In this document: positions 569 to 55,114 of the stretch, piece after piece
How positions within the stretch are numbered: the stretch's first letter is position 1
Layout: every line of letters begins with the position of its first letter
DNA from: Panorpa germanica
Taxonomy: Eukaryota; Arthropoda; Insecta; Mecoptera; Panorpidae
Assembly (NCBI GenBank): GCA_963678705.1
Contig: CAVMBN010000143.1
Location: 248,001-312,000 of the forward strand
Direction: 5' to 3'
Length of the DNA: 64,000 nt
The notes under the pieces: model-generated
Seen by the model: the letters and a program-made list of their open reading frames with translations, nothing else
The model's database searches: none
What the model was told of the DNA's origin: nothing
Made by a program: the position numbers and the translations under genes

Positions 569-599
569 TATTGAATCTTTCGTATGTGCAATCTGCAGG

Positions 600-3339: not shown

Positions 3340-3410
3340 CCTTTACAATAATAATCAGTGTTGAGGTAACCATCTTTATAATAACATGCATTTATTATCT
3401 TAATAAACAT

Positions 3411-3580: not shown

Positions 3581-3585
3581 AAAGT

Positions 3586-11796: not shown

Positions 11797-13377
11797 CGCG
11801 TACACGCGGTCTTATAAACATAACCTCAAAATTGTAACTTTGTTGTTTGATATAAAATATTAATAAGTGCGATAGACAAAGAAAGTAATAATAATTAGGT
11901 TAGTGTTAGTGCTAAAACATCAAGTGGTTAAGAAATTCAAGAAATCTGTAGAGCTATATAAGTAAGACCTCATATAAATACTACAAATATACGGAAGACA
12001 AAAGGTTGCCGCCCACTATCAAGTAAGTCGATTAACATTAACTATAAATATTATTACAACATAACAATTAGTTTATATAAATGCGTGTTTCAAATAATAA
12101 AGAGAGTGTATTAATTGTTATAAGTGATTAAGTGAACATCATATGCGGTTTTCTTGCAAAATAGTGACTGATCGTTCATAAACAAACAATGGTAACAAAC
12201 AAATGGTAAGTAAGTAGGCTTAAGTAGAAGTATGTACTTAGGATATTTATAGAAATTCAGTGTGCCTTTGATAATGTCTGGTGGCCAAGTGACCTTCAAA
12301 GAATTAGGCCGGCAAAAAGCTCTAGGAACGTCTACTGCGCTATGGAGAACTTTTTTCATTGTCGAACATTAATTTTACAAACCGATTATTGTACCATGAA
12401 AAGGCAACTATCTAAAGGTTGTCCTTAGCAATCCGTAATGGGGTCTGAGCTCTGGAACATGGTATTCGACGAGAACTGTGTTTCTCACTCGAAGGGTTGT
12501 GTAAACGTATGTTTTGCCGATGATAATGTAATCCTTGTTTGTGCAAATAGTAGAGAACAATTAGAAAGCCGTTTTCGACCTTCTATAGATAAAATGTGTA
12601 GTTTCTTGAAGCTACGAAACGAATACGGTAACAACGAATGATAAACTTGTAACACACCTTGCGCGTGTCACAATAACGGAATGGAGCTTAAATTCGGCAA
12701 CTATGCCGACACTATACAACAGGGCATTTATTCCAATGGTTGTGTTTTGTGCTTCGGCATGGTATCACAGGATCAATCTTGAGGATCCTACATGCAAAGA
12801 ACTATGTTATTGACGATGATGCGTTGTTGCAGAACTATATCTATAGAAGTGGTGCAGGTGATATCGAAGACAATTCCTTTAGATTTAAAAATCACTCATG
12901 CACTCACTTAAGTACTAATTACGCTAGAACTGAAAAAATCAAATTTTTATGATTTAAAGTTAATGCGACAAATTTCAAGGATTAAAAGTTAATGCGGCTG
13001 TCAGATAAAAGTCTGGAGACGATACCAAATGTATTGCCAAAGAAATGAATGCATATATGCATTAGCTCTGGCAAGACAGATGGAATCTAATAAAAGAAGG
13101 AAGACCTACGTATTGGTTTACAAAGACGGTTATATTGCCTTGCAACACAAGTGGTCCCTATCTACTGTGTGTGTGATCGGCTCCTGCTACTTTAGGTGAT
13201 AAAAGTAATTAAAAGTGAGAAATTAATTACGGAAAAAAATTATATATATTATATGAATACTTTTTCTAACGAAAAGTTATTAAGTTTATTTTAAATTTGT
13301 GTTAATTTACCCTAAAATCAGTGTTTTTACAAAAGTTTGACAGTTGGAAACCAGTGTTAAAAACAAATTTTTTATTA
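11797..13377 (+). repeat. satellite unit 1
   Basis: First unit of the array, 1581 bp. It contains an RT fragment at 12438-12641 (MGSELWNMVFDENC, FADDNVILVCANSREQLE). The reading frame is broken on both sides. The left junction with unrelated sequence lies at 11796/11797, exactly at the CGCGTACACG word. Confidence 0.9.
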
Positions 13378-14970
13378 CGCGTACACGCGGTCTTATAAAC
13401 ATAACCTCAAAATTGTAACTTTGTTGTTTGATATAAAACATTAATAAGTGCGATAGACAAAGAAAGTGATAATATGTAGGTTAGTGTTAGTGCTAAAACA
13501 TAAAGTGGTTAAGAAATTTAAGAAATCTGTAGAGCTATATAAGGAAGACCTCATATAAACACTACAAATATACGGAAAACAAAATGTTGCCGCCCACTAT
13601 CAAGTAAGTCGATTAACATTAACTATAAATATTATTACAACATAACAATTAGTTCATATAAATGCGTGTTTCAAATAATAAAGGGAATTTATTAATTGTT
13701 ATAAGAAATTAAGTAAACATCATATGCGGTTTTCTTGCAAAATAGTGACTGATCGTTCATAAACAAACAATGGTAACAAACAAATGGTAAGTAAGTAGGC
13801 TTAAGTAGAAGTATGTACTTGGGATATTTATAGAAATTCAGTGTGCCTTTTGATAATATCTGGTGGCCAAGTGACCTTCAAAGAATTAGGCCGGCAAAAA
13901 CCTCTAGGAACGTCTACTGCGCTATGGAGAACTTCTTTCATTGTCGAACATTAATTTTACAAACCGATTACCGTTCCATGAAAAGGCAACTATCTAAAGG
14001 TTGTCCTCAGCGATCCGTAATGGAGCCTGAGCTCTGGAATATGGTATTCGACAAGAACTGTGTTTCTCACTCGAAAGGTTAGGTAAACGTATGTTTTGCC
14101 GATGATAATGTGATCCTTGTTTGTGCAAATAGTAGAGAACAACTAGTAAGCCGTTCTCGACCTGCTATAGATAAAATGTGTAGTTTCTTTAAGCTACGAA
14201 GCTACAAAACGAATACGGTAACAACGAATGTTAAACTTGTAACACACCTTGCGCGTGTCACAAGGACGGAATAGAGCCTAAAATCGGCAAATATGCCGAC
14301 ACTATACAACGAGGCATTTATGCCAATGGTTGTGTATTGTGCTTCGGCATTGTATCACAGGATCAATCTTGCGGATCCTCCATGCAAAGAACTATGTTAT
14401 TGACGATGACGCGTTGTTGCAGAACTGTATCTATAGAAGTGGTGCAGGTGATATCGGGGACAATTCCTTTAGATTTAAAAATCACTCATGCACTCACTCA
14501 AGTACAAACTACGCTAGAACTGAAAAAATAAAATTTTTATGATTTAAAGTTAATGCGATAAATTTCGAGGATTTAAAGTTAATGCTGCTGTCGAATAAAA
14601 GTCTGGAGACGATACCAAATGTACTGCCAAAGAGATGAATGCATATATGCATAAGGTCCCATCTGGCAAGACAGATGGGACCTAATAGAAGAAGGAAGAC
14701 CTACGTATTGGTTTACAAAGACGTTAATATTGCCTTGCAAAACAAGTGGTCCCTATCTACTGTGTGTGATCGGCTCCTGCTACTATAGGTGAAAAAAGTG
14801 ATTAAAAGTGAGAAATTAATTACGTAGAAAAATTAAATATGTTATATAAATACTTTTTCTAACGAAAAGTATTTAAGTTTATTTTAAATTTGTGTTAATT
14901 TACCCTAAAATCAGTATTTTTACAAAAGTTTGACAGTTTAAAATCAGTGTTAAAAACGAATTTTATATTA
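13378..14970 (+). repeat. satellite unit 2
   Basis: 1593 bp. It holds the longest run from RT motif A into motif B: 13843-14082 encodes FDNIWWPSDLQRIRPAK and later KGCPQRSVMEPELWN. A donor-like GT at 13604 and an acceptor-like TTCAG ending at 13841 would bound a 238-base intron just before motif A. A stop (tag) ends the RT frame before the FADDN motif. Confidence 0.9.
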
Positions 14971-16559
14971 CGCGTACACGCGGTCTTATAAACATAACCT
15001 CAAAATTGTAACTTTTTGTTTGTTATAAAACATTAATAAATGCGATAGACAAAGAGAGTAATAATAATTAGGTTAGTGTTAGTGCTAAAACATCAAGTGG
15101 TTAAGAAATTCAAGAAATCTGTAGAGCTATATAAGGAAGACCTCATATAAACACTACAAATATACGGAAAACAAAAGGTTTCCGCCCACTATCAAGTAAG
15201 TCGATTAACATAAACTATAAATAATATTAAAACATAAGAATTAGTTTATATAAATGCGTGTTTCAAATAATAAAGAGAGTGTATTAATTGTTATAAGTGA
15301 TTAAGTAAACAATATATGCGGTTTTCTTGCAAAATAGTGACTGATCGTTCATAAACAAACAATGGTAACAAACAAATGGTAAGTAAGTAGGCTTAAGTAG
15401 AAGTATGTACTTGGGATATCTATAAAAATTCAGTGTGCCTTTTGACAATATCTGGTGGCCAAGTGACCTTCAAAGAATTAGGCCGGCAAAAACCTCTAGG
15501 AACGTCTACTGCGCTATGGAGAACTTTTTTTATTGTTAAACATTAATTTTACAAACCGATTACTGTTCCATGAAAAGGCAACTATCTAAGGGTTGTCCTC
15601 AGCAATCCGTAATGAAGCCTGAGCTCTGAAACACGGTATTCGACGAGAACTGTGTTTCTCACTCCAAAGATTGTGTAAACGTATGTTTTGCCGATGATAA
15701 TGTGATCCTTGTTTGTGCAAATAGTAGAGAACAATTAAAAAGCCGTTCTCGACCTCCTATAGATAAAATGTGTAGTTTCTTGAAGCTACAAAGCTACGAA
15801 ACGATTACGGTAACAACGAATGTTAAACTTGTAACACACCTTGCGCGTGTCACAAGGACGGAATGGAGCTTAAACTCGGCAACTATGCTGACATTATACA
15901 ACGGGGCATTTATGCCAATGGTTGTATATTGTGCTTCGGCATGGTATCACAGGATCAATCTTGTGGATCCTCCATGCAAAGAACTATGTTATTGACGATG
16001 ACGCGTTGTTGCAGAACTGTATCTATAGAAGTGGTGCAGTTGATATCGGGGACAATTCCTGTAGATTTAAAAATCACTCATGCACTCACTCAAGTACAAA
16101 CTACGCTAGAACTAAAAAAATCAAATTTTTATGATTTAAAGGTAAGGCGACAAATTTCGAGGATTTAAAGTTAATGCGGCTGTCGGATAAAAGTCTAGAG
16201 ACGATACCAAATGTATTGCTAAAGAGATGAATGGATATATGCATTAGCTCTGGCAAGACAGATGGAATCTTATAAAAGAAGGAAGACCTACGTATTGGTT
16301 TACAAAGACGGTTATATTGCCTTGCAACACAAGTGGTCCCTATCTACTGTGTGTGTAATCGGCTCCTGCTACTTTAGGTGTAAAAAGTAATTAAAAGTGA
16401 GAAATTAATTACGGAGAAAAATGAAATATATTATATAAATACTTTTTCTAACGAAAAGTATTTAGGTTTATTTTAAATTTGTGTTAATTTACCCTAAACA
16501 AAGTGTTTTTACAAAAGTTTGACAGTTAGATACCAGTGTTAAAAACGAATTTTTTATTA
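14971..16559 (+). repeat. satellite unit 3
   Basis: 1589 bp. RT-derived frames at 15702-15995 (ILVCANSREQLKSRSRPPID to AFMPMVVYCASAWYHRINL) and, in another frame, 15863-16168 (MQRTMLLTMTRCCRTVSIEV) show a frameshift typical of decay. It is most similar to unit 4. Confidence 0.9.
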
Positions 16560-18149
16560 CGCGTACACGCGGTCTTATAAACATAACCTCAAAATTGTAA
16601 CTTTTTTGTTTGATATAAAACATTAATAAGTGCGATAGACAAAGAAAGTGATAATAATTAGGTTAGTGTTAGTGCTAAAACATCAAGTGGTTAAAAAATT
16701 CAAAAAATCTGTAAAGCTATATAAGGAAGACCTCATATAAATACTACAAATATGCGGAAGACAAAAGGTTGCCGCCCACTATCAAGTAAGTCGATTAACA
16801 TTAACTATAAATAATATTAAAACATAAAAATTAGTTTATATAAATGCGTGTTTTAAATAATAAAGAGAGTGTATTAATTGTTATAAGTGATTAAGTGAAC
16901 AATATATGCGGTTTTCTTGCAAAATAGTGACTGATCGTTCATGAACAAACAATGGTAACAAACAAATGGTAAGTAAGTAGGCTTAAGTAGAAGTATGTAC
17001 TTGGGATATTTATAGAAATTCAGTGTGCCTTTTGATAATGTCTGGTGGCCAAGTGACCTTCAAAGAATAAGGCCGGCAAAAACCTCTAGAAACGTCTTCT
17101 GCGCTATGGAGAACTTTTTTTATTATCAAACATGAATTGTACAAACCGATTACCGTTTCATGTAAAGGCAACTATCTAAGGGTTGTCCTCAGCAATCCGT
17201 AATGAAGCCTGAGCTCTGAAACACGGTATTCGACGAGAACTGTGTTTCTCACTCCAAAGGTAGTGTAAACGTATGTTTTGCCAATGATAATGTGATCCTT
17301 GTTTGTGCAAATAGTAGAGAACAACTAAAAAGCCGTTCTCGACCTCCTATAGATAAAATGTGTAGCTTCTTGAAGCTACAAAGCTACGAAACGAATACGG
17401 TAACAACGAATGTTAAACTTGTAACACACCTTGCGCGTGTCACAAGGACGGAATGGAGCTTAAACTCGGCAACTATGCCGACATTATACAACGGGGCATT
17501 TATGCCAATGGTTGTGTATTGTGCTTTGGCATGGTATCACAGGATCAATCTTGTGGATCCTCCATGCAAAGAACTATGTTATTGACGATGACACGTTGTT
17601 GCAGAACTGTATCTATAGAAGTGGTGCAGTTGATATCGGGGACAATTCCTGTAGATTTAAAAATCACTCATGCACTCACTCAAGTACAAACTACGCTAGA
17701 ACTAAAAAAATCAAATTTTTATGATTTAAAGATAATGCGACAAATTTCGAGGATTTAAAGTAATTGCGGCTGTCGGATAAAAGTCTAGAGACGATACCAA
17801 ATATATTGCCAAAGAGATGAATGCATATATGCATTAGCTCTGGCAAGACAGATAGGACCTAATAAAAGAAGGAAGACCTACGTATTGGTTTACAAAGACG
17901 GTAATATTGCCTTGCAACACAAATGGTCCCTATTTACTGTGTGTGTAAACGGCTCTTGCTACTTTAGGTGTAAAAAGTGATTAAAAGTGAGAAATTAATT
18001 ACGGAGGAAAATTATATATATTATATGAATACTTTTTCTAACGAAAAGTATTTAAGTTTATTTAAAATTTGTGTTAATTTACCCTAAAATCAGTGTTTTT
18101 ACAAAAGTTTGACAGTTAGATACCAGTGTTAAAAACGAATTTTTTATTA
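16560..18149 (+). repeat. satellite unit 4
   Basis: 1590 bp. It shares with unit 3 several variants absent from other units (for example aatgaagcctgagctctgaaa before the FADDN motif), so units 3 and 4 probably arose by a recent duplication. RT-derived frames lie at 17292-17585 and 17453-17758. Confidence 0.9.
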
Positions 18150-19528
18150 CGCGTACACGAGGTCTTATAAACATAACCTCATAATTGTAACTTTGTTGTT
18201 TGATATAAAACATTAATAAGTGCGATAGACAAAGAAAGTAATAATAATTAGGTTAGTGTTAGTGCTAAAACATCAAGTGGTTAAGAAATTCAAGAAATCT
18301 GTAGAGCTATATGAGGAAGACCTCATATAAACACTACAAATATACGGAAGACAAAAGGTTGCCGCCCACTATCAAGTAAGTCGATTAACATTAACTATAA
18401 ATATTATGACAACATAACAATTAGTTTATATAAATGCGTGTTTCAAATAATAAAGAGAGTGTATTAATTGTTATAAGTGATTAAGTGAACATTATATGCG
18501 GTTTTCTTGCAAAATAGTGACTAATCGTTCATAAACAAACAATGGTAACAAACAAATGGTAAGTAAGTAGGCTTAAGTAGAAGTATGTACTTAGGATATT
18601 TATAGAAATTCAGTGTGCCTTAGATAATGTCTGGTGGCCAAGTGACCTTCAAAGAATTAGGCCGGCAAAAAGCTCTAGGAACGTCTACTGCGCTATGAAG
18701 AACTTTTTTCATTGTCGAACATTAATTTTACAAACCGATTATTATACCATGAAAAGGCAACTATCTAAAGGTTGTCCTTAGCGATCCGTAATGGGGCCAG
18801 AGCTCTGGAACATGGTATTCGACGAGAACTGTGTTTTTCACTCGAAGGGTTGTGTAAACGTATGTTTTGCCGATGATAATGTGATCCTTGTTTGTGCAAA
18901 TAGTAGAGAACATCTAGAAATCCGTTTTCGACCTCCTATAGATAAAATGTGTAGTTTCTTTAAGCTACGAAGCTACAAAACGAATACGGTAACTACGAAT
19001 GATAAACTTGTAACACACCTTGCGCGTGTTACAAGGACGGAATAGAGCTTAAACTCGGCAAATATGCCGACACTATACAACGGGGCATTTATGCCAATGG
19101 TTGTGTATTGTGCTCCGGCATTGTATCACAGGATCAATCTTGCGGATCCTCCATGCAAAGAACTATGTTATTGACGATGACGCGTTGTTGCAGAACTGTA
19201 TCTATAGAAGTGGTGCAGGTGATATCAGGGACAATTCCTTTAGATTTAAAAATCACTCAAGTACAAATTACGCTAGAACTGAAAAAATCAAATTTTTATG
19301 ATTTAAAGTTAATGCGACAAATTTCGAGGATTTAAAGTTAATCGATACTAAAGAGACGATACCAAATGTATTGCCAAAGAGATGAATGCATATATGCATA
19401 AGGTCCTATCTGGCAAGATAGATGGGACCTAATAGAAAAAGGAAGACGTACGTATTGGTTTACAAAGACGTTAATATTGCTTTGCAACACAAGTGGTCCC
19501 TATCTACTGGGTGTGTGATCGGCTCCTG

Positions 19529-25925: not shown

Positions 25926-26872
25926 TGTAACAGTCCCATATAGATTCATTAATTATTAATATATTTTACTTACTATTTAGGAACCATTGTAAAGGTTCAT
26001 ATACAAAGTAAAACGTAGATTTTTAATAGTTAAAGTCGCTTAACTGGCGGGAACATTAGTTAGATTAAGTATTGTTTTATCGATAGGACCATGTCGCATA
26101 TTATTATTATATTCAAAACTGACGTTGTAGTATTTACAATAACTTTTTAAAAGAAATATTAATTAACTTCCTTTGTTTAAGGCACGTAAAGTTTTAAATA
26201 ATGTTTATATTAAAACCAAATACGAATATTCAAAGTAATGATGATGAAATGATATTTTGGTTTAAGATAAACATAGCTACAGTTTAAATGAGGTCATATA
26301 TTGAAACAAAGACTTTTTAAGCTATATAAGCCTAGAAAAAAGGGTATTCCCTGATCAGACCATCAGATCAGCTCCAGTGAGTCGGTTGGGTTTAAGTCAG
26401 TCGCCCAAAAGATTATAAAGTTACTAAGAATTGTATTTAATAATTGATTAATCAATAAAGACAATAGTGTTAATAAATACATTGTTTTAATTTGTAAAGT
26501 TCTAAGAGTTAACGGTCGCGTCGCGTTAAAATAAAGTGAGTGTTCAACAGCCGAACTAGCAGCCTGCAGTAAACACAAAGTAAGTAAAACCTAATATATT
26601 TATGTAATATAATTAGAAGAGGTACTCTAAGTCCTGATAGATAAATAAGCATCCACAATTAGCTTGGTCATCCGACTCAAGGAGATCCAGATCTCTAAAA
26701 GAACTCTCGTTTGAGGGGATTGTAGAATTGCCCTCATAAAATAAGTAACTACCACCATATATACACGGTGTCCAGAAAGGGTATCGGGTATTTGTAAGTT
26801 CAATGAAACAAAAATTATTTGTATGCAATAAAAAAGTTTATTGTTTATTATTAGCATATGAATTGGAGAATT

Positions 26873-27301
26873 ATTTGGAAAAGATGACGTTATCCAAATG
26901 ATGACCGTTACGTTGCTGGCACTCTTCTAAACGGAAACGAAGATTGGCGATAACACGTTGACACATAGCTATCGAAATTGCTGCCATTTCTGACCTGATG
27001 TTTTGCTTTAACTGGGTTAAATTCGTCGGATTGTTTTGATAAACCTTACTTTTAAGGTATCTCTATGCAAAATAGTCAAGCGCGCTAAGGTCGGGGCTTC
27101 TGGGAGGCCAGTTGATGTTACCCCTTCGCGAAATGACTTTATTTTGGAATAACTCGTTAACAACTTCCATTGAGTTATTTGAGGTATAACAAGTGGCCCC
27201 ATCTTGCTGGAACCACGTTCTTGAGTTAAAACCTGCAAACTCCTGCAACTCTGGGACCAAAAAATTTCGCCTCCTAGGTCTTTAGTTAACGTTGTAAGCA
27301 T
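26873..27301 (-). pseudogene. mariner-type transposase, C-terminal remnant
   Basis: The minus strand encodes WFQQDGATCYTSNNSMEV (second catalytic Asp region) and WPPRSPDLSALDYF (third catalytic Asp region, usually SPDLTPLDYFLWG). A stop follows directly in the open frame. Further along, 26873-27010 still reads as the usual C-terminus (NIRSEMAAIS, ANLRFRLEECQQRNGHHL) in another frame. The transposase would cut and paste DNA using a DDE/D catalytic triad. The first catalytic Asp and the helix-turn-helix domains are absent, so the protein cannot work. Frame changes near 27050 separate the two readable blocks. Confidence 0.8.
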
Positions 27302-27850
27302 GCTATGTCATTGTTGAATGTAACTTATCTTCTGCAACCCATTGAATGCATGGCTCTAGTGTGGCCACCTTAAGGCTCCTAATAGAAACGTTATATAAAT
27401 TTTATAAAAGAGTGTCTATACTATCTCATATTAAAATTTTAGCCTCCTAGGTCTTTATTGTACCTTTCAGTTAACGTTGTAAGCATGCTATGTCATTGTT
27501 GAATGTAACTTATCTTCTGCAACCCATTGAATGCATGGCTCTAGTGTGGCCCCCTTAAGGCTCCTAATAAAAACGTTATATGAATTTTATAAAGGAGTGT
27601 ATAGACTATCTCATATTAAAATTTGAGCCTCCTAGGTTTTATTGTACCTTACAGTTAACGTTGTAAGCATGCTATGTCATTGTTGAATGTAACTTATCTT
27701 CTGCAACCCATTGAATGCATGGCTCTAGTGTGGCCCCTTTAGGGCTCCTAATAAAAACGTTATATAAATTTTATAAAGGAGTGTCTAGACTATCTCATAT
27801 TAAAATTTGAGCCTCCTAGGTCTTTATTGTTACCTTACAGTTAACGTTGT
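27269..27850. repeat. ~184-bp tandem repeat inside the mariner-type element
   Basis: Units begin (gcctcctagg) at 27269, 27442, 27627 and 27811, giving periods of 173, 185 and 184. Each has gttgtaagcatgctatgtc and ctgcaacccattgaatgcat. The array begins at the truncated 5' edge of the transposase remnant. Confidence 0.88.
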
Positions 27851-28619
27851 TAACTTTAAATCACCATAACGATAATACGCTCGTACGCAAAATGCGCGAT
27901 GCATCCCCGAGTATTGTTCCATCGTGACTAAAACTCCACAGAATGGCGGACGCCACGAACCCTTCCCCGCACCCTTTAGACGCCCCGTTTCGAATATGGC
28001 GCGAAAACAAATACCCGATACCCTTTCTGGACACCCTGTAGAAGTAAGTTATAAGGGGTAGGGTTACGCCTGCTACTTTAGGTGAAAAAAGTGATTAAAA
28101 GTGAGAAATTAATTACGGAGAAAAATTAAATATATTATATGAATACTTTTTCTTACGAAAAGTATTTAAGTTTATTTTAAATTTGTGGTAATTTACCCTA
28201 AAATCAGTGTTTTTACAAAAGTTTGACAGTTGGAAATCAGTGTTAAAAACGAATTTTTTATTACGCGTACACGCGGTCTTATAAACATAACCTCAAAATT
28301 GTAACTTTGTTGATTGATATAAAACATTAATAAGTGCGATAGACAAAAAAAGTGATAATAATTAGGTTAGTGTAAGTGCTAAAACATCAAGTGGTTAGGA
28401 AATTCAAGAAATCTGTAGAGCTATATAAGGAAGACCTCATATAAACACTACAAATATACGGAAGACAAAAGGTTGCAGCCCACTATCAAGTAAGTCGATT
28501 AACATTAACTATAAATAATACTAGCGCTTCGCCCCGTCGCAAAGCGACGTGTATTTAATATTTGTGAATAAATAAAAGTTATTTGATAAATAGAAAATAA
28601 TCCTGAAATATTGTTTATT

Positions 28620-29900
28620 GTTCGCCTTTCGGCTTTACAATCTACATACTTAATACATTTCATATACTTCAACTTACAATTAAATTTACATTATTCTCCA
28701 CCAACTTATTTATTCTTCTGTTTTTCCTCTCCTTCTTACTATTTCCGCCATCCAACTCTTTCCTTCACTGCCTCCCTTTAATAGCTGGCCAATATTCTTT
28801 TCGCTAGCTACTTTGTCCTTACACTCAAACTTAATGTGCTCCAGTGTTTCGCCCTCCGCTCCGCACACTCTACACTTTCTTTCCTTACTCTTTTCCCAGT
28901 ATCTGTTTCCTTTTTCCTCATTTCCTAATCTAAACCTTGCTGTTCTTCTAATGGATTTTATGTCTTTTTCTATAAGGTACTGAGGCACAGTATTTTCTTA
29001 TAACCTTTTATATCTTTTATTGTAGTTACTTTTTTCTATTTTTCCCATTCTCTCCTGCTGTTGTATCTCCTTATCCCTTCTCCTTAGCTCCTCTTCCATA
29101 CATGCGCCTCCTTCTCTTCTCCTCTCTGCCTCCTCGATCACCATTCCATTCCTTTCAAAGTACTATTTTCTCTCTTTTGTACCTCCTCCCCCCTCCCCAT
29201 TCTTTATGCTATCCTCTCTTATTTTCTTTAAAATTTTGCTTTCCGCTCTGTTAAATTTCTCCTCATATTTTACTGCTCTTTCCCCTGTTTTAATTCGTAT
29301 CTTATCCCTTTTTAGCTCCTCCATAGCCATGTATTCTGGCGTGCACCTGTCCAGCCTTAGTAACCATTTAATATATCTCACCTGTATTCTTTCCAACTTT
29401 TCTTGCTCCATACAACATCATACTGGCTATCAGTCTATCAAACATCCATATTCTCTTTTGTATGTCCCCCCGAAATACCTTTTCTCCTAGTCACCATACC
29501 TGTCGCATTGCTAGCTCCGCCTTCTTTGCTACTTCCCTTATTTGAGCCTCTTCTCCATTGTTCTTTTTAAAAGTGTAGCCCAGATATTTAAATACTTCTA
29601 CTTCCTCAATGTCCTTTGTCTTGTATTTTCACCTTTTATGTCTTCTTTTTCCACCCCCTTTTTTAAATACCATAATTTTTGTCTTTTCCACATTTAACTC
29701 TAGTCCTTTCCTGTCTATATATCTCCCTAGCCGGTGAGCCATCTCCTGCAGCTCTCCTATTCTTTTTGCCAACAGGACTATATCGTCAGCGTATGCTTAA
29801 GTCCATATCTTGTAGTGTCTTCCTATTAGCACCCCCCCATCTTGTCCTCTTTCCATTACCCCCTCCAAGTCTGCTGTATATATCGCAAATAAAATGCAAA
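28620..29900 (-). pseudogene. LINE reverse-transcriptase fragment carried by Helitron A
   Basis: Minus-strand frames read, in order, YADDIVLLA (with a stop just before), KGLELNVEKTKIMVF and FKYLGYTF at about 29540-29800, then the thumb at 29163-29411 (KLERIQVRYIKWLL) and a C-terminal zinc finger at 28710-28988 (CRVCGAEGETLEHIKFEC). A LINE-type 3' tail with cgaacaataaac follows. The fragment begins just upstream of the catalytic YADD, so it is a 5'-truncated LINE of a type common in Hymenoptera, as I recall. Frameshifts and a stop near 29795 break it. No separate target duplication was found. Confidence 0.75.
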
Positions 29901-32900
29901 ATATTACTTTGTTATAATTCCTTTATTTACAGTAATAAAGCACTGTATTGACCAGTCTCCAGCGCCCATAAGCCCCAAACTTCACCTCGTGGCTCCATGC
30001 TCTCTTACGTTTCCGAACTTCTAATTCGATTCCTCTACATTTCCGCCATGGAGCGCCTCCTACTTTTAGCACTCTGCATCGCTTCTTCCCTGAGCATCGT
30101 CGGTCCTTAGAGTACTTTCACAGCGCCCCCCCTGCGTAAAATTATCATTTACCATAATGAAGCACAGTATTAAGCAATGTCCACTGCTTTGCCCCTTAAT
30201 ACCAATCACCTCTTGGCTCCATGCTCTGTATCGTTCTCGCACTTTTAATTGTATTCATCTGCACCTTTTCCACAATGCGCCCACTTGCAACACTACAGCC
30301 CACCTAAACATCATCGCTCACTAGGGCACTTTCCTATCCCCCCGTTTAGCGCAATCATTAAATAATCCTGCGCTTCCACCCCCTGCGTACTAATCTCCTA
30401 ACAATTAGTTTTCTAAATTAATACTTTACTGGCAACCTGCATACTAAATTTCATCCTTAGAAGTACATTATTTTTTAATAATTATTCGATAAGATATATC
30501 TTTAATAAATTTTATACTAATTTCAATGTAAACCTACTAATTACATTAATTAATTTATGTTTTTAAGAAAGCCTAGCAGTTCGCTTTTAATAATCTCATC
30601 TCTAGGCCTTTTCCTTCCCGTTATTGCACTTTCGATTTAATTCTCATGCCCCGCCACCCACACTTTCAACACCAAAGCATATATTCTGCAACACGGTTAC
30701 CTCTCAGAGCCATTAAAATCTATCGCCACTACTTCTAACACCACCGTTACTTAGTACTGAACCCCAGCGCCACACTCTCCTCCAATCAGGCACTACCAAT
30801 GCGATATTACAGCAACTCAATTACATGATTAAAACTGTACTGTAATCTTACATTCTATATTTCGTATTTATATTTACGGTATAATATTAGTCTTGCCATT
30901 AATCCCCGCTCCTGAAATAAAATTGTCAAAATTTTGTCATATTTTTAGCTCTCTACCTTTATCTACCCCTTCTTTTATAAATGACCGAAATTTCAAAATT
31001 GAGTTTTTTGGCAAAGCTTTTTCCCGCCCCAACTTCCCCAATTTTACGTCGCTACTAAGGTTAAATTCATTTTCGCAAATATGCACATGCATAGTTTCTA
31101 TTTTTTAATTTTTTTTATTTTTTTGATATTTGGGGCTGTTAACTATTTCCCTCCTATACCTCTCACTCCTGTTCGATTTCACAGCACAACAAACGCACCA
31201 AAAATCAATCCAATTCTACTACTGAATGTAATTTGAATATTTGACTTATAGAGAACTATTAAGCTTCTATTTAATATTCTACATGCTAAATATCATCGTT
31301 GTACCTCTATATTGTTTTTATACTCGGTATATCACTCTCCACTCTAATGTTGCACTTAAGAAAATGTAGTTTTTTTTATATTTTCGTAATAAATATGTCA
31401 ATCTATATCTGCATATTTAATTTCAGCTTTGTATTTATATTTTAGCATTAGTACCCCCCCACAAACCTCCGCTACTGAACAACTTTGTTAAATTTTAGCA
31501 CGGGGATCTATTTTATTTGTATCTAAGAACATATTTTTTAAACTATAGCTCTTTATCTCTATATATTTCATATTTCTGGTTTTTAGCCTCCAGCGCCCGC
31601 CGCCTCTGGAAAGTTTTCTTTAGTTTTTCTTTAATGATACTCTATATAAGGCCCACGTTCCAAATATCAACGTTCTAGCTCGGTTGCGACATTGCTCCCA
31701 AAAAATCACGCCGCTACTGAATTAAAATTTTGGTAATCCAATGATTGGCAAACATGCGCAATTAGTGTCTCAATACATACCCTAAGTTTTAATACTACTT
31801 TTTTAATATTTCTGGCTTTTACTGTGTCAACTCCCGCCGCCACTGGAAATTTGGGGCTTTTTATTTTTTTTCTTCTTTAATTACTGTCTACAGCGAGCCT
31901 ACATATTAAATTTGAACGTCCTAACTCTTTTCTAACATTGCCCCCTGAAACTCGCGCCGATACTGAACTTAAATTTCAAATTTCCAACTATTTGCAAATG
32001 TGCACATTTATGATCTCAATACACATACCAAATTTCAGTTTTCTATCTTTTCCAGTTCGTCAGATATTTACAAAAGTATTTTTTCGAATTTTCCAGTTTT
32101 GTTCATTTTAGCATTAGAGCCTCTCACATATCTCCGCTACTGAATTAAAGTCCAAATATGTACCTCTTTATCGTACTTATCATCAGTTTATTACCTCTGC
32201 CCTAATGTTACACTAAAGAAAATGTAGTTTCTTTATATTTTTATTGTTATTGTCAATCTATATCTGCATACTAAATTTCAGCTTTGTATTTAAATTTTAG
32301 CATTAGTACCCCCCACATACCACCGCTACTGAACAAGTTTGTGAAATTTTAGCACGAGGATCTATTTTATTTGTATCTAAAAATATATATTCTAAACTAT
32401 AGCCTTTCATCTCCATATATTTCAAATATCTGGTTTTTGGCCCCCAGCGCCCGCCGCCTCTGGAAAGTTGCAAATTTCTATAGTGTGTCTTTAATGACAC
32501 TCTATATATGGCCCCTGTTCCAAATTTTAACGTTCTAGCTCTGTTGCGACATTTCCCCCAAAACATCACGCCGCTACTGAATTAAAATTTTGGTAATCTA
32601 ATTATTGGCAAACATGCGCAATTAGTGTCTCCATACATACCCTAAGTTATAATACTACATTTTCAATATTTCTGGCTTTTACTGTCTCAACTCCCGCCGC
32701 CACTGGAAATTTGGGGCTGTTTTTTTTTTCATTAATAACTGTCTACAGCGAGCCTACATATTAAATTTCAACGTCCTAACTCTATTCTAACATTGCCCCC
32801 GGAAATTCGCGCCGCTACTGAACTTAAATTTCAAATTTCCAACTATCGGAAAATGTGCACAATTATGATCTCAATACTCATACCAAATTTCAGTTTTCTA

Positions 32901-33157
32901 TCTTTTCTAGTTCGCCAGATATTAGCAAAAGTATTTTTTCGAATTTTCCAGTTTTTCCAGTATAAGTTATTCCACGGAAATTCAGGGGAAAAATCAGGGA
33001 CGTAGAAAGTCTTAGAAATTCGTCCTTTACATCATACCAAAATTTGAAGAACTTTGTAGGCGCCGTTTAGAAGATACCATATACGATTTTGTTACCGGAT
33101 ATATATATAAATAAATAAATAAATATATAAATATATAACGCTCTATATAAATATCTA
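29900..33157 (-). other. 5' low-coding region of Helitron A with internal duplication
   Basis: About 3.2 kb without plausible genes. A unit of about 861 bp is present twice, beginning near 31345 and near 32206. Within it a shorter word (ccgctactgaa, plus strand) recurs at roughly 190-250 base intervals near 31475, 31725, 31955, 32135, 32325, 32570 and 32812. The end near 33100 has aaataaata microsatellite sequence. Confidence 0.75.
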
Positions 33158-33257
33158 CTAGCGCTTCGCCTCGTCGCAAAGCGACGTGTATTTAATATTT
33201 GTGAATAAATAAAAGTTATTTGATAAATAGAAAATAATCCTGAAATATTGTTTATTG

Positions 33258-34540
33258 TTCGCCTTTCGGCTTTACAATCTACAATCTTAATACATTTCAT
33301 ATACTTCAACTTACAATTAAATTTACATTATTCTCCACTAACTTATTTATTCTTATGTTTTTCCTTTCCTTTTTACTATTTCCGCCATCCACCTTTTTCC
33401 TTCACTGCCTCCCTTTAATAGCTGGCCAATATTCGTTTCGCTAGCTACTTTTTCCTTACACTCAAACTTAATGTGCTCCAGTGTTTCGTCCTCCGCTCCG
33501 CACACTCTACACTTTCTTTCCTCACTCTTTTCCCAGTATCTGTTTCCTTTTTCCTCATTTCCTAATCTAAACCTTGCTGTTCTTCTTATGTGTTTTATGT
33601 CTTTTTCTATAAGGTACTGAGGCACAGTATTTTCTTATAACCTTTTATATCTTTTATTGTAGTTAATTTTTTCTATTTTTCCCATTCTCTCCTGCTGTTG
33701 TATCTTCTTATCCCTTCTCCTTAGCTCCTCTTCCACACTTGCGCCTCCTTCTCTTCTCTCTGCCTCCTCGATCGCCATTCCATTCCTTTCAAAGTACTAT
33801 TTTGTCTTTTTTGTACCTCCTCCCCCCCCATTCTTTATGCTATCCTCTCTTATTTTCTTTAAAATTTTACTTTCCGCTCTGTTCAATTTCTCTTCGTATT
33901 CTACTGCTCTTTCCCCTGTTTTATTGCGTATCTTATCCCATTTTAGCTCCTCCATAGCCATGTATCCTGGCGTGCACCTGTCCAGCTCTAGTAACCATTT
34001 AATATATCTCACCTGTATTCTTTCCAACTTTTCTTGCTCCTTCCACCCCCAAACCTCTGCTCCATACAACATCATACTGGCTATCAGTCTATCAAACATC
34101 CATATTCTCTTTTGTATGTCCTCCCCAAATACCTTTTCTCCTAGTCACCATACCTGTCGCATTGCTAGCTCCGCCTTCTTTGCTACTTGCCTTATTTGAG
34201 CCTCTTCTCCATTGTGCTTTTTAAAAGTGTAGCCCAGATATTTAAATTCTTCTACTTCCTTAATGTCCTCTGTCTTGTATTTCCACCTTTTATGTCTTCT
34301 TTTTCCACCCCCTTTTTTAAATACCATAATTTTTGTCTTTTCCACATTTAACTCTAGTCCTTTCCTGTCTATATATCTCTCTAGCCGGTGAGCCATCTCC
34401 TGCAGCTCTCCTTCCCTTTTTGCCAACAGGACTATATCGTCAGCGTATGCTAAAGTCCATATCTTGTAGTGTCTTGTCCTCTTTCCATTACCCCCTCCGA
34501 GTCTGCTGTATATATCTCAAACAAAATGCAAAATATTATT
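33258..34540 (-). pseudogene. LINE reverse-transcriptase fragment carried by Helitron B
   Basis: The same fragment as in Helitron A. Frames at 34145-34426 (GLELNVEKTKIMVF, FKYLGYTF), 33797-34099 (MLYGAEVWGWKEQEKLERIQ) and 33353-33625 (CRVCGAEDETLEHIKFEC) cover palm, thumb and C-terminal zinc finger. It reads further than the copy in A because the GAEVWGW stretch is kept here. The YADD motif is visible near 34430-34450. It is broken by frameshifts between the three frames. Confidence 0.75.
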
Positions 34541-36548
34541 TTGTTATAATTCCTTTATTTACAGTAATAAAGCACTGTATTGACTAGTATCCAGTGCCCC
34601 CGCCCATAAGCCCCAATCGTCACCTCTTGGCTCCATGCTCTCTTACGTTTTCGAACTTTTAATTTGATTCCTCTAAACTTCAGCCATGAAGCGCCTCCTA
34701 CTTTTAGCACTCTGCATCGCTTCTTCTCTGAGCATCGTCGGTCCTTAGAGTACTTTCACAGCGCCCCCGCTGCGTAAAATTATCATTTACCATAATGAAG
34801 CACAGTATTGAACAATGTCCACTGCCCCGCCCCTAAACATCACTCACCTCTTGGCTCCATGCTCTGTATCGTTCTCGCACTTTTAAATGTAATCATCTGC
34901 ACCTTTGCCATAATGCGCCCACTTGCAACACTACAGCTTAACTGAACATCATCACTTATAAGGGCACTTTGCAATACCCCCCGTTTAGCGCAATCATTAA
35001 ATAATCCTGCGCTTCCACCCCCTGCGTACTAATCTCTTAACAATTAGTTTTCCAAATTAATACTTTACTGGCAACCTGCATACTAAATTTCATCCTTAGA
35101 AGTACATTATTTTTTAATAATTATTCGATAAGATATATCTTTAATAAATTTTATACTAATTTCAATGTAAACCTACTAATTACATCAATTCATTTATGTT
35201 TTTAAGAAAACCTAGCAGTTCGCTCTCTAACTGTATATTAATCTCATCTCTAGGCCTTTTCCTTCCCGTTATTGCACTTTCGATTTAATCCCCATACCCC
35301 GCCACCTTCACTTTCAGCACCAAAGCACATATTCTGCAATACGGTTACCTCCCTGAGCCATTATAATCTATCGCCACTACTACTAACACCACTGTTACTT
35401 AGAACTGAACCCCAGCGCCACACTCTTCTCCAATCAGACACTACCAATTCGCTATTACAGCAATTCATTTACATGATTAAAACTGTACTGTAATCTTACA
35501 CTCTATATTTCGTATTTATATTTACGTTATAATATTAATCTCCCCATTAATCCCCGCTCCTGAAATAAAATTGTCAAATTTTAGGCATAGCAATATATTT
35601 TGCTCGTAACAACTCTCACTACCTTTATCTACCCCTACTTTTATAAATGGTCGAAATTTCAAAATTGAGTTCTTTGGCAAAGCGTTTTCCCGCCCCCACT
35701 TCCCCAATTTCACGCCGCTACTATGGTTAAATTTATTATATAAATATGAACGTGCATAGTTTCTATTTTTTTACTTTTTTTGATATTTGGGGCTGTTAAC
35801 TATTTCCCCCCTATACCCCTCACTCCTGTTCGATTTCACAGCACAACAAACGCACCAAAAATCAATCCAATTCTACTACTGAATTTAATTTGAATATCTG
35901 ACTTATATAGAACTATTTAGCTTCTATTTAATATTCTACATGCAAAATATCATCGTTGTACCTCTATATTGTTCTTATACTTAATATTTTATAATTATTG
36001 GCAAACATGCGCAATTAGTGTCTCCATACATACCCTAAGTTATAATACTACATTTTCAATATTTCTGGCTTTTACTGTCTCAACTCCCGCCGCCACTGGA
36101 AATTTGGGGTTGTTTATTTTTTTTCATTAATAACTGTCTACAGCGAGCCTACATATTAAATTTCAACGTCCTAACTCTTTTCTAACATTGCCCCCTGAAA
36201 CTCGCGCCGATACTGAACTTAAATTTCAAATTTCCAACTATTTGCAAATGTGCACATTTATGATCTCAATACACACACCAAATTTCAGTTTTCTATCTTT
36301 TCTAGTTCGTCAGATATTAGCAAAAGTATTTTTTCGAATTTTCCAGTTTTTCCAGTATAAGTTTTTCCACGGAAATTCAAGGAAAAATTCAGGGACGTAG
36401 AAAGTCTTAGAAATTCGTCCTTTACATCATACCAAAATTTGAAGAACTTTGTAGGCGCCTTTTAGAAGATACCATATACGATTTTGTTACCGGATATATA
36501 TATAAATAAATATATAAATATATAAATAACGCTCTATATAAATATCTA
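34540..36548 (-). other. 5' low-coding region of Helitron B
   Basis: Homologous to the same region of Helitron A but about 1.2 kb shorter, with only part of one ~861-bp unit left (junction near 35985). No gene is seen. Confidence 0.7.
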
Positions 36549-37768
36549 TGAGTTCTTATGGGTTTTCCATGTTAAATTGGAACATTACGAACATTATAAT
36601 AGGTAGATGAGTTCTTATGAGTTTTCCATGTTAAATTGGAACATTACGAACATTATAATAAGTAGATTAAAACATAAAAATTAGTTTATATAAATGCGTG
36701 TTTCAAATAATAAAGAGAGTGTATTAATTGTTATAAGTGATGAAGTGAACATCATATGCGGTTTTCTTGCGGTTATAGTGACTGATCGTTCATAAACAAA
36801 CAATGGTAAAAAACAAATGGTGAGTAAGTAGGCTTAAGTAGAAGTATGTACTTAAGATATTTATAGAAATTCAGTGTGCCTTTGATAATGTCTGGTGGCC
36901 AAGTGACATTCAAAAAATTAGGCCGGCAAAAACCTCTAGGAACGTCTACTGCGCTATGGAGAACTTTTTTCATTGTCGAACATTAATTTTACAAACCGAT
37001 TACCGTTCCATGAAAAGGCAACTATCTAAAGGTTGTCCTCAGCGATCCGTAATGGGGCCTGAGCTCTGGAACATGGTATTCGACGAGAACTGTGATTCTC
37101 ACTCCAAACGTTGTGTAAACGAATGCTTTGCCGAAGATAATGTGATCATTGGTTGTGCAAATAGTAGAGAACAACTAGAAAGCCGTTCTCGACCTCCTAT
37201 AGATAAAATGTGTAGTTTTTTTAAGCTACGAAGCTACGAAACGAATACGGTAACAACGAATGATAAACTTGTAACACACCTTGCGCGTGTCACAAGGACG
37301 GAATGGAGCTTAAACTCGGCAACTATGCCGACACTATACAACGGGGCATTTATGCCAATGGTTGTGTATTGTCCTTCGGCATAGTATCACAGGATCAATC
37401 TTGCGGATATTCAGTCATTGTATCTTGCAGAGAAATGTTCTTTATTAAGTTTCTTTAAAGGAAAATAATATTAAAAAATCAACCTTACAAGAGTGCTAAT
37501 AACAAGTGGGATCAATAGACGCAAGATTTAATTTTACATCTACTGATGGTATTTATTCACCTTTAGTAAGTAAATCATAAGAGATACAGTGCAATTAGTG
37601 TCGAGATAGTAAAATTGCAATATTGTTCATTGTTTTTTTCTTTTTGCTAAAATATCTATTGTTTTGTGAAACAATAAATTCTATTGTAATTATTGAAACT
37701 GTGCTCACTAGTAAAAGGAATCATGATACTAGTGAAGTGTAAAGACTTTAATTTTAAATTGATTTAAT

Positions 37769-38720
37769 TTGTGGATTAAAAATCGGTATATGTGGAGAGT
37801 GGGCAAGCGTTCTCTCAAGGACTGGATTATTAACAGCTTCCGTTACGCGTTGGTGATGAGTCATACGAATGACACATTTTACCCCTTTAGTAAGGCACGC
37901 AAAATGCAGAGAACTCCGCCCAAGCAAACAAAGGAACCGCAAGCGGGAACAAAAGAACAAATGGAATTAGAAAGTCAGTCATTACATCCAATGACAACTA
38001 TTACCTATCAAGAAGAAAACAATGGTTTAAATACCAAAAAGAGAAACAGTTATATACTGCACTGAAAAAGAAAAGAGCAGAAAAAACCATACTACTTGAA
38101 AAGTCGAACAATTGGAAGCGCAGATGCGCTAATTGGAAGAAAGGGAAAACAGGCGGGCTGATTACAAAACAAATAGTCAAACTAAAGCTGATAAATATAA
38201 GACAGATAAAGATGATCTAAATAGGGAGACCGATTGGATCGTTAAAAAGAGAAAATTTAAAAAACGCAAACCAAATACATCACCTTACATCTCTCCTGAA
38301 AAAGATGTAATTAAAACCCAACCACAAACTAAAAACGATACTGAAATTATTACCAATTAAGATAAGTGTTCGTCCGCCACCTATTAATGTAAGGGGTATA
38401 AAGGAATATAAAATACTCTATGAAATCTTAAAAAAATACAACCGATCAAGAATGCAAGGTAACGGCCCTGAGTAATACCGCATGGAAAATTAATGCGCCT
38501 GATCCCAATGCGTACAGAGGGTTAGCGCATAAATTGAATGAGGGAAAATTTCAGTAGCACACATATGAAGACAAGAATGAGAGAATAATTAATGTCATGG
38601 CTAAAGGATTACATCCTTCATGTGAAAAAGATGACATCATTAAAGATCTCAAAGCTAAAGGACTAAACGTGTTGGATGCTGTAAACATCATTAAAAAGGA
38701 TACAAGGATCTAAGAAAATG
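37769..38720 (+). pseudogene. Jockey ORF1 remnant
   Basis: The N-terminal part is Lys/Gln-rich (KMQRTPPKQTKEPQAGTKEQ). At 38490-38700 the sequence reads WKINAPDPNAYRGLAHKL and VMAKGLHPSCEKDDIIKDL, which matches the RNA-binding-type domain that precedes the zinc knuckles in Jockey ORF1. Several frame changes and stops lie between 38065 and 38580. The CCHC knuckles expected after this domain are absent, so a deletion probably joined ORF1 to the start of ORF2. ORF1 proteins bind element RNA. Confidence 0.65.
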
Positions 38721-38780
38721 GTGAAAAAATAACTACGTAAATAGAAACTGAATTGAAAACAATGCAACAAAGAAATAGAA

Positions 38781-41448
38781 ATGAATAACGTGGTAACAAT
38801 AGCTGCCTGGAATGCAAACGGATTACAAGAACGCATTCATGAACTAGAGCTATTCATGCGCTTACAGAAAATTGATATATGCCTTGTGTCGGAGACACAT
38901 TTTACACGAGAGTCGTATATTAAACTTAATAACTTTAACATATACAAGTCAATTCTTCCGGCAAATAAAGCGAGGGGAGGAACCGCAATAATAATTAATG
39001 GAAGAATCAAACATAACGCTGAAGTAAACATCGAAACAGATGAAATGCAAGTGACGATAGTGTCAGTGCATATACAAAATTAAAGGTTCAAAATAGCAGC
39101 TATATATTGTCCACCGAGATATAACTTAAAATAGAAAACTACGCGAACCTGTTCAAAACAATAGGCAACAAATTTTTTATTGGTGGAGATCTTAACGCCA
39201 AAAACACTTTCTGGGGCTCTCGGTTAACCACGGCCAAGGGAAAGGAGCTCTACCAGGCTGGATGCGAACAAAAGTGCGACTTCCTTTTCACAGGAATGCC
39301 AACGTACTGGCCAACAGATTGTGATAACATTCCAGACCTGATTGACTTTTTTATTATTAAAGGACTGTCGAGGAACTATATGCACATTATTAGTGATAAA
39401 ACAATATCGTCGGATCACACTCCGATTATACTTACCATTACCAGCTCAGTAATAATAAAAAGTGCACCACCAAGCCTTACTAATAATAGAACCGACTGAG
39501 AAAGATTCCGTGAAGATCTTGAGCTAAGAACAAACCTACAAACACCGCTAAAAACATTGAAACAACTAGAAGACGACATCGACTTGTTAGTGAAAAAAAT
39601 CCAAAACGCAGCGTGGAGAAATACTCCGGTAGTGAAAAGTAAAGGAAATCTTGATGTGAAGTTCCCACAGGAGATAAGAGAACTAGTAAGTAAAAAGCGG
39701 AGAGCTAGGAAGAAATGGCAAATGAGTAGAGCACCACAGGACAAAACCACACTAAATTCATTAGTAAACAAATTAAAGGAGTTGCTGAAAGAATTCAAGA
39801 ATGATAGCTTCAGTTGGTGCCTGAGCGGACTCTCTGCAGAAAAAGACACAGAGTACTCACTGTGGAAAGCAGCAAAAACCATAAAGAGACCGAAGAATCA
39901 GAACCCACCTATCAAAAAAGAAGACGGATCTTGGATGGTCAACAATAAACAAAAAGCCGACTTATTCGCTGATCATTTAGAAAAGACATTTAAACCGTAT
40001 CCACGACAGACTACTGAGGAAGAAATCAGATGCAGCAGAAGAACGGAGAACCAAAAAATTCTTCCAGTCACTTTTAAGGAACTAAAGAACGTAATAAAGA
40101 GCGATTTGAACGCTATAAAGGCCCCAGGATTTGACCTAATAACAGGTAAGGTTATAAAGGAACTACCTGATATAGCATTGAAAAAGCTCCTACACCACTA
40201 CAATGCAGCTATCAGACTACTATATGTTCCTAGTCAATGGAAAGTAGCTAAAGTGATAATGTTACCTAAACCCGGTAAACCTCCAAATGAGATTATAAGC
40301 TATCGGCCAATTTCATTATTACCAGTATTATCAAAAATATTCGAGAAGCTACTGCTGAAGAGACTGAAGCCAATAATATCTGAAAGAAATCTAATCCCTG
40401 ACCATGAATTCGGATTTCAAAGTAAACACACGACCATTGAACAAGTCCATCGGATTACCAATATTATTGAAAAAGCACTGGAAACACAACAACTATGTTT
40501 GTGTGTGTTTCTTGATGTGGCACAGGCATTCGACAAGGTATAGCATCAAGGATTATTATACAAACTAAAAAAAGATTTACCTGGTGATTGGTACCATATT
40601 CTTAAATCTTTTTTCAAATGTAGACACTTTAGAGTGAAAGTGGACGATTAGTACTCAGATATGAAACAGATAAAAGCAGGAGTTCCACAAGGCAGCGTCC
40701 TTGGTCCAGTTCTGTACTTATTATATACACGGGATATACCACAACCTAAGAACAGTAAAATAGCTACATTCGCAGACGACACAGCGATAATGGTTGTTGG
40801 AAAAAATGAGAAAGAGGTTACCAGAAAACTACAGCATTCACTAGACGAGCTTTGCAAATGGACAAAGAAATGGCGATTTAAGCTGAACGAAGCCAAATCC
40901 ACGCACATCAACTTTACAAATCAAATAACTACTCCTCTCACAGTTACTATCACAGCCAAAAAATACCCTATTCCAACACAGCGAAATACCTTTGCATGAC
41001 GCTTGACGCAAAACTCAAGTGGAAGGAGCATGTTAAGATAAAAAGAGAACAGCTAAATAATAAAATCAGGAAAATGCACTGGCTTATGGGAAAACATTCT
41101 CAGCTTACAGTGCACAACAAACTGTTATTGTATAAGCAAATACTGAAACCCATATGGACTTATGGTATACAACTTTGGGGTTATACCAAAAAAACAAATT
41201 TACCAATAATTCAAACTTTCCAAAACAAAGTACTACGAAGCATTACAAATGCGCCCTGGTACATACGGAATAATAACTTACACCGTAATCTAAAGATGCC
41301 CACCGTTGACGAAGAAGTCAGGAAGGCAGCAAGCAAACATCTACTGCGACTGCAAAACCACCAGAATGAAGAAATTCTGCAGCTGCTTAATAACAGAGAG
41401 AATCTGCGCAGATTGAAGAGGACCAAGCCAGAAGACTTGACCCTGTGA
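38781..41448 (+). pseudogene. Jockey ORF2 (endonuclease and reverse transcriptase), broken
   Basis: The endonuclease starts at ATG 38781 (AAWNANGL, CLVSETHFT), and its later motifs GGDLNAKNTFWGSR and SSDHTPI lie at 39180-39430 after a stop and frame change near 39080-39150. The RT is well kept: SYRPISLLPVLSKIFEKLL, FLDVAQAFDKV, AGVPQGSVLGP and the catalytic FADDTAI. TAG stops are at 40541 (where the family has Trp) and 40649, and a one-base frame change occurs near 40990. The thumb and C-terminus (40996-41448, YKQILKPIWTYGIQLWG) are open. The enzyme would nick DNA and copy its RNA there. Confidence 0.88.
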
Positions 41449-42128
41449 TTCTGCTACTACAAACCACACAAGTTTTTAAAATTTTGGAACTAGTCAGTGG
41501 ACTAGAACTGAACAATTATATTTAACTTTTTAAATATAAATTACTAGATAAGCCTCGCTTAGTTGTAATATTCTTGTAAATAATAAAAAAAAAAGAAAAA
41601 ATCTTGCGGATTCTTTAGACAATTTCTTTAGATTTAAAAATCACTCATGCACTCACTCAAGTACAAATTACGCTAGAACTGAAAAAATCAAATTTTTATG
41701 ATTTAAAGGTAATGCGACAAATTTCGAGGATTTAAAGTTAATGCGGCTGTCGGATGAAAGTCTGGAGTCGATACAAAATGTATTGCCAAAGAGATAAATG
41801 CATATATGCATAAGGTCCCATCTGGCAAGACAGATGGGACCTAATAGAAGAAGGAAGACCTACGTATTGGTGTACAAAGACGTTAATATTGCCTTGCAAC
41901 ACAAGTTTCCTATCTACTGTGTGTGTGATCGGCTCCTGCTACTTTAGGTGTAAAAAGTGATTAAAAGTGAGAAATTAATTACGGAAAAAAATTTAATATA
42001 TTATATGAATACTTTTTCTAACGAAAAGTATTTAAGTTTATTTTAAATTTGTGTTAATTTACCCTAAAATCAGTGTTTTTACAAAAGTTTGACAGTTGGA
42101 AACCAGTGTTAAAAACGAATTTTTATTA

Positions 42129-42374
42129 CGCGTACACGCGGTCTTATAAACAAAACCTTAAAATTGTAACTTTGTTGTTTGATTTAAAACATTATTAAGT
42201 GCGATAGACAAAGAAAGTGATAGTAATTAGGTTAGTGTTAGTGCTAAAACATCAAGTGGTTAAGAAATTCAAGAAATCTGTAGAGCTATATAAGGAAGAC
42301 TTCATATAAATACTACAAATATACGGAAGACAAAAGGTTGCCGCCCACTATCAAGTAAGTCGAATAACATTAAT
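42129..42374 (+). repeat. satellite unit 7, truncated
   Basis: Only the first ~246 bases of the unit are present, through the cgcccactatcaagtaagtcg region. It then meets the LTR of the outer BEL/Pao element at 42375. Confidence 0.88.
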
Positions 42375-52588: not shown

Positions 52589-52764
52589 TGGTTGGGGAGT
52601 TTGGACCTTTTATAGATCTATAAGCTGGCTAGAGCGTATTTGTGATCTGTCGGCGGTATCCAAGTTATCAAACTGCTCGGGGGCGCTCAGTTCCTTTCAA
52701 TAGCTTAAGGTGCGCACAATTATTATTTTATATTAAATATGAATATTGAATGCGTTTATGAACA
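52589..52764 (-). repeat. right LTR of the outer BEL/Pao element (176 bp)
   Basis: It shares TGGTTGGGGAGTTTGGACC and the gcgtttat(g/a)aaca end with the left LTR but is much shorter. It is followed directly by inverted satellite sequence. Confidence 0.82.
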
Positions 52765-53788: not shown

Positions 53789-53863
<75 letters not shown>

Positions 53864-54904: not shown

Positions 54905-55114
54905 TTACGAGAGTATATATAGAGGTAAAGTTTGCCGAAACACTAACATTATTAAAAACCTTAAAAAAAAATCTATTCTTTTAATAAAATACCTTAAATT
55001 TATTGGTTTACTATAAAATTTTATGAAAGAAGAAATTTCTTTATAGAAAACAATATCCCTACAAGTTAATAAATAAACCAGCACATGCGGTGGTTGTGGA
55101 TTGACTGTCTTCAT
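54905..55114 (-). CDS. 69-residue reading frame of repeat copy I, unknown
   Basis: From ATG 55114 the frame reads MKTVNPQPPHVLVYLLTC, then RDIVFYKEI, and continues open for 69 codons (including IKFYSKPINLRYFIKRI). It aligns without any gap to the 53-residue frame of copy III on the other strand. In the first 18 codons the two copies differ at four third or first positions, all silent. After that come K/R, E/D and V/D changes. No domain or signal is recognised. The conservation hints that the peptide was once translated; whether it is now is unknown. The copy's own donor and acceptor words look mutated. Confidence 0.4.
   Translation of the reverse strand: MKTVNPQPPHVLVYLLTCRDIVFYKEISSFIKFYSKPINLRYFIKRIDFFLRFLIMLVFRQTLPLYILS

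Follow-up and report, generated by a model that had tools for sequence, protein, structure and literature searches.

A stretch of 64,000 nucleotides of the Panorpa germanica genome (assembly GCA_963678705.1, contig CAVMBN010000143.1, positions 248,001 to 312,000; hereafter, the window) carries on its minus strand a Helitron, A (36666 to 28521), that is split at its position 59|60 by a related Helitron, B (36607 to 33158). Tandem Repeats Finder calls the pair of 59-bp segments at 36549-36666 a tandem repeat; this apparent repeat is two Helitron 5' ends, because A, B, their junctions and both empty sites fit nesting. The nest is a clean case of Helitron behaviour that is already known, and the coordinates and boundaries given for it in the original prediction were correct to the base.

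The 5' side of the nest reads TTTTAA|TCTACTT, with the 5' terminus of Helitron A at 36666, followed after the first 59 bp of A (36608-36666) by AACTCA|TCTACCT, in which the last base of AACTCA is 36608 and B opens at 36607. The 3' side reads GCGCTAG|TAGATATTT, where B ends at 33158 and A resumes from its position 60 at 33157, and, after the remainder of A (positions 60-4696 at 28521-33157), GCGCTAG|TATTATT, where A ends at 28521. Helitron A is therefore cut at the A|T step 59 bases inside it, as had been proposed, with zero bases lost or gained around B, which is complete (3,450 bp) and in the same orientation; A minus B measures 4,696 bp. The first 59 bp of B (36549-36607) differ from those of A at two positions, and the proposal that these adjacent segments are the 5' ends of B and A holds, as B is complete and A resumes at 60. 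The stretch AACTCATAGATATTT is uninterrupted in B, as in other copies, and in A it is the place where B sits. Across the loci fetched, some of which overlap, the uncut 40 bp spanning 59|60 turned up 25 times (≤4 mismatches); two of these reads are B itself, and 19 distinct other places were counted by us. Both 3' ends (B, 33158-33186; A, 28521-28549) carry the hairpin CGTCGC-TTT-GCGACG, 10 bases and CTAG, so that the predicted hairpin is present in both, with a stem readable as 6 bp and 10 bases to CTAG instead of 5 and 11, a trivial difference. Immediately beyond the cut lies an AT-rich tract of A (positions 60-118, 33099-33157), whose equivalent in other copies hosts nested insertions.

Helitron A in turn interrupts a satellite unit, and its joined flanks fit A-free units. 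With a limit of 8 mismatches, the joined 40-bp flank had seven matches in the window (five minus, two plus; 0-4 mismatches), and a 19.8-kb portion of contig C134 gave another seven (0-2 mismatches), with a perfect 40/40 match once in each; removing 28521-36666 thus restores the unit, as predicted. The five minus-strand empty sites of the window are spaced 1,581-1,592 bp apart, and a unit cut out between two of these sites aligns with the remaining units. Satellite flank extends over 28069-28520 on one side of A (joined-flank match and unit alignment) and over 36667-37408 on the other (from 36687 by BLAST against the unit, and the 20 bp nearest A by joined-flank match).

With both junction pairs, both empty sites and the family boundaries read directly, we regard it as almost certain that A came to lie in a satellite unit and that B then nested in A at 59|60, both between the bases A and T. 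In this history, Helitron A would have entered a ~1.59-kb unit with no target duplication; later, a complete member of the same family, B, would have entered A at the edge of the AT-rich tract, in the same orientation.

Family ends and coding content

The family carrying A and B is large. Its 3' end gave 1,179 matches and its 5' end 1,013 in the 464-Mb genome (≤3 mismatches), and these are not chance matches, because reversed-pattern controls gave 0 for each. We checked the flanks at 32 loci (5' ends at ≤1 mismatch, 3' ends at ≤3 mismatches). The base before the 5' end was A in 14 of 19 distinct ends, and the CTAG of another copy preceded four; T followed the 3' end in 21 of 22 distinct ends, in line with the expectation that other copies are flanked by A and T. 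Similarly, T followed in 30/30 of a non-random sample of 3' flanks (n = 30; L009-L018 and L082-L101, the first 32 listed places minus one known tandem and one known nest).

Helitrons A and B both show the traits of canonical Helitrons (Helitron1): 5' TC after a host A, 3' CTRR before a host T (here CTAG|T), a short hairpin some 10 bases from the 3' end, and no target-site duplication, the last satisfied at A by the 40/40 empty unit and also around B. As to terminal inverted repeats, no inverted pairs were found in 26000-40000, in a search at a minimum length of 40 only. Passages of PMC4778049 describe the same 5' TC and 3' CTAG after a short hairpin for Helraiser/Helibat of bats, A|T insertion of Helraiser without duplication, a preference for AT-rich targets that is strongest on the 3' side, and precise head-to-tail junctions known from circles. 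Compared with that description, A and B are alike in their ends, in A|T insertion and in the lack of duplication, whereas they differ in terminal sequence and host, lack a Rep/helicase in the four open reading frames (ORFs) scanned, and are known from sequence alone.

Identity between the two elements is 95.8% in their first 616 bp and 91.6% in the last 2.8 kb. Positions 262-1058 of A are present again in A at 1117-1917, and most of A 619-1892 is missing from B. Internal repeats of ~855-860 bp (29900-36400, minus strand) vary in number between A and B, and element length therefore varies. Seven minus-strand ORFs of ≥80 amino acids (aa) lie over A and B, of which four were scanned for domains. 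Three gave weak matches to reverse-transcriptase domains, read as relics (RVT_1, E 2.2e-05; zf-RVT, E 0.00046 and 0.002), none of which reaches the Pfam cut-offs; one relic lies in B at 33353-34426 (minus strand), with weak RVT_1 and zf-RVT matches. The fourth gave no match, and a Rep/helicase domain was not found in any of the four. Because the scanned ORFs give weak reverse-transcriptase relics or nothing, both Helitrons are to all appearance non-autonomous.

Elsewhere in the genome, Helitron_like_N (PF14214) has at least 150 matches (150 of 893 candidates scored, all matching), and PF14214 and PIF1 occur together in two ORFs, of 1,489 and 1,120 aa. Transposition of A and B would have depended on a Rep/helicase protein from another element of this kind; such frames exist in the genome, with none matched to these ends. 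One locus, L055 (C1:2466900-2474800), holds an open Rep-helicase frame of 1,489 aa, the N-terminal part of which repeats a ERSQRLASQNARTLA-like motif.

Landings in and beside the 5' ends of kin

The junction CTAG|TAGATATTT was exact at the window and at C226 only. Allowing ≤3 mismatches, the search gave 24 matches, of which 12 loci were read: one is the window by place, eight have the family 3' end followed by the family 5' interior, two involve another family, and at the last, L081, nesting was not confirmed. At C1:9834124 and C5:19305417, position 59|60 was hit by another Helitron family, with the 3' end CGTCGC-TT-GCGACG ... GTAAAAGCTAG. Further landings were seen at position 71 (seven matches at ≤2 mismatches, two of them read); in the C1 case the next listed 3' end adjoins an own 5' word, so that a single 3' end apparently serves two 5' termini. 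Locus L015 holds a copy nested inverted at 89|90, and at L028 the 5' word of a sister family (see below) lies in the same AT-rich tract. These nested 3' junctions were found by targeted search, and their counts are no unbiased measure of a 59-105 hot spot; among the 30 sampled 3' flanks, the 59-105 tract holds one (L015). A kin-like 5' word starts 23 of the same 30 flanks, judged by eye from the presence of TATAATGTTC or TATAATGTCC within the initial 30 letters, the seven without one being L010, L012, L015, L084, L085, L087 and L097.

Genome-wide, the family 3' end has 195 joins to its own 5' word and 347 to the 5' word of the sister family, TCCTATATTATAATG (≤2 mismatches for both; controls 0), and 68 joins to TATATTATAATGTCCC; these counts include later duplication copies and have mismatch limits unlike that of the 1,179 above. 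The sister word, with 1,769 matches, is preceded by A in L005, L011, L015, L025 and L028, by T once (L005) and by C once (L022); we take it for a Helitron 5' end. Sister words are also often doubled or tripled: in a listing of 100, 20 neighbour pairs lie less than 200 bp apart (11 at 48 bp, 6 at 56 bp), one cluster being C1:11817162, 11817218 and 11817266. The TATATTATAATGTCCC joins may represent landings in a relative with a TCA start, 3 bp from its 5' end. A TCA-type start, observed in L011, fits that idea; the reading is tentative because in L005, a complete unit of the TATATTATAATGTCCC kind, the 5' flank ends ACTA, not TCA.

We classed 100 listed 3' ends from C1 and C2 by what they adjoin: the own word in 18 cases, the sister word in 25, the TATATTATAATG word in 5 and something other or unlisted in 52. 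Where the unit also has an own 5' end (40 units), the corresponding numbers are 11, 13, 0 and 16. This tally uses zero-mismatch listings up to 10.5 Mb plus two one-mismatch junction rows; its class of other or unlisted conceals more kin joins, and a unit may span two elements if an end carrying mismatches is missing from the listing between them. As a worked case of a mixed join, L008 is a continuous element with 5' A|TCTACC and 3' CTAG|TCCTATATT.

Head-to-tail joins raise the question of a rolling-circle concatemer, that is, a tandem dimer later rearranged, as the source of the window arrangement. The 195 head-to-tail junctions within the family count in its favour, as does an array at C1:15743481-15769881, where family members lie head to tail with several units 3,855 bp long. 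A dimer, however, would consist of the whole of A and then the whole of B, and the observed order would need two breaks at the same base, which makes this origin exceedingly improbable for the nest. The C1 array itself suggests array amplification, not separate landings. Pairs of mixed family cannot be produced by a plain concatemer, whereas landing at the A|T step of a resident 5' boundary can yield them.

Of all aspects of the case, this clustering at the 5' ends of kin is the most interesting. A Helraiser-like preference for AT, strongest on the 3' side, may be enough to account for the joins, because the start of A and its positions 81-120 are AT-rich (15/20 in the first 20 bp and 38/40, respectively). 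We hold it possible, and on balance doubtful, that the resident kin 5' terminus is itself a favoured target, at position 0, at position 3 or in the 59-105 tract, beyond any AT preference; the transposase might, for instance, bind or nick resident 5' ends and join the incoming 3' end there. If so, mixed-family head-to-tail arrays would arise from targeted landing and not as concatemers, and in the window nest the same mechanism would narrowly have missed its target. The abundance of joins between the 3' end of one family and the 5' end of another makes such a target choice testable. Maize Helitrons are reported to favour sites near other Helitrons for insertion (Yang and Bennetzen 2009, as cited in part of PMC12477314); clustering with kin is the shared feature, whereas here the positions at kin 5' ends are resolved to the base. 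In searches confined to open-licence papers, few of them opened, we recognised no account of base-level Helitron landing at kin 5' ends in an animal.

Doubled and tripled words and the weighing of histories

The flank junction of A was found at two places only (≤2 mismatches), the window (contig C159) and contig C134. The latter (L063/L064, C134:72901-92700) shares the satellite flank with the window, and A-free satellite units follow. It has three 59-bp words and a single body. Word 1 is identical to the first 59 bp of A and word 2 to those of B, while word 3 has one difference from each (one A-type and one B-type letter) and runs on to position 93, where it is interrupted by a complete element, D (2,497 bp), with junctions TATTTA|TCTACTT at 5' and CTAG|TATATATATATATCCGG at 3'. 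The body is 96.4% identical to A 108-4654 and 92% identical to B over the last 2.8 kb, and it stops 42 bp before the 3' end, at unrelated sequence. The expectation that C134 keeps all nested 3' ends accordingly fails, its sole body being broken there.

Because the flank junction and the first two words are common to C159 and C134, the sequences suggest that the nest predates the split of the two loci, and C134 could be an allele instead of a paralog. Its three words and one body probably arose through recombination between bodies, since the body is nearer A than B. More generally, one of the bodies in such nested pairs may be lost, either through recombination or when transposition starts at the outer 5' end and stops at the inner 3' end; two or three 5' words would then remain, which is how we read C134 and possibly C2 and C21.

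The word junction AACTCA|TCTAC has five exact occurrences, distributed over four loci (one each at C2, C21 and the window, two at C134), and a sixth match carries a mismatch in the flank. On the 5' sides read, the outer word at C2 and C21 comes after the CTAG of an upstream element. The original prediction had held that copies with the word normally present twice would speak against nesting; this is borne out in part elsewhere, by the doubled or tripled words at C2, C21 and C134, and not in the window. A doubled 59-bp word alone is no proof of a nest, because these three loci have such words with no 3' nesting junction found.

Several observations weigh against the nested history as we give it. 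At C2:11703546, C21:21627328 and C134, words are doubled or tripled with no CTAG|TAGATATTT nearby (≤3 mismatches). One of the 19 distinct 5' ends is preceded by a G outside any CTAG, and one of the 22 distinct 3' ends is followed by C. Among the Rep-domain loci examined there was no autonomous partner with the ends of A and B: 20 such loci, examined together with 1.5 kb of flank at either end, did not show the family ends, and three further Rep-helicase loci (8 kb read) end in CTAG|T, unlike the family's end. Furthermore, A and B diverge by 4-8%, too much for B to be a recent daughter of A, and it is the nesting alone that orders the events.

The doubled words bear most directly on an ordinary tandem duplication of one 5' end, by slippage or unequal exchange, with no nested element. 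The words at C2, C21 and C134 found without a 3' nesting junction are consistent with it, as are word 3 of C134, which mixes A- and B-type letters like an exchange product, the 20 sister-word pairs spaced 48-57 bp among the 100 listed words, and L005, the sole such sister pair read, where the second word is preceded by T, not A. Duplication is likely as the account of the tripled word at C134. In the window, however, the second word opens a complete 3,450-bp element that ends in CTAG, after which A resumes at 60; tandem duplication would produce no such 3' junction, and we consider it very unlikely there.

That A and B form an old composite moving as a unit would agree with the 5' part of the nest being common to C159 and C134. 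Their shared satellite flank, however, implies one insertion, duplicated or allelic, and no third place has the A flank junction at ≤2 mismatches. The exact 3' nesting junction likewise recurs only at C226, where ~530 bp beside the inserted 3' end do not match A. We thus give a mobile composite next to no weight. Tandem duplication, concatemer and composite are all rejected for the window, and nesting of B in A is retained.

Self-insertion, multiple 5' termini and tandem Helitrons are already published for other organisms. In the portion of PMC5148889 drawn on here, Helitrons of Fusarium oxysporum show nested self-insertion with the first 31, 65, 73 or 85 bp repeated, and several 5' termini with one 3' terminus, for which a model derives them from nesting; the same source cites tandem Helitrons for bat, Drosophila, rice and maize. 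The elements described here are similar in self-nesting and repeated 5' stretches. They differ in that A and B have canonical ends, whereas the Fusarium elements are non-canonical (Helitron2-like), and in that a full two-junction nest and doubled-word loci occur within one family. The window nest is ordinary in kind and well documented as an instance, and the wider pattern is moderately interesting: a transposon that landed in a relative's start can mimic a short tandem repeat, and a sister locus keeps a real one.

Elsewhere in the window, the ~1.59-kb satellite is likewise broken by insertions, with plus-strand segments at 11797-19528, 28069-28520, 36687-37408 and 41618-42373. Partial units at 52764-54907 (minus strand) have the opposite orientation and are more diverged.

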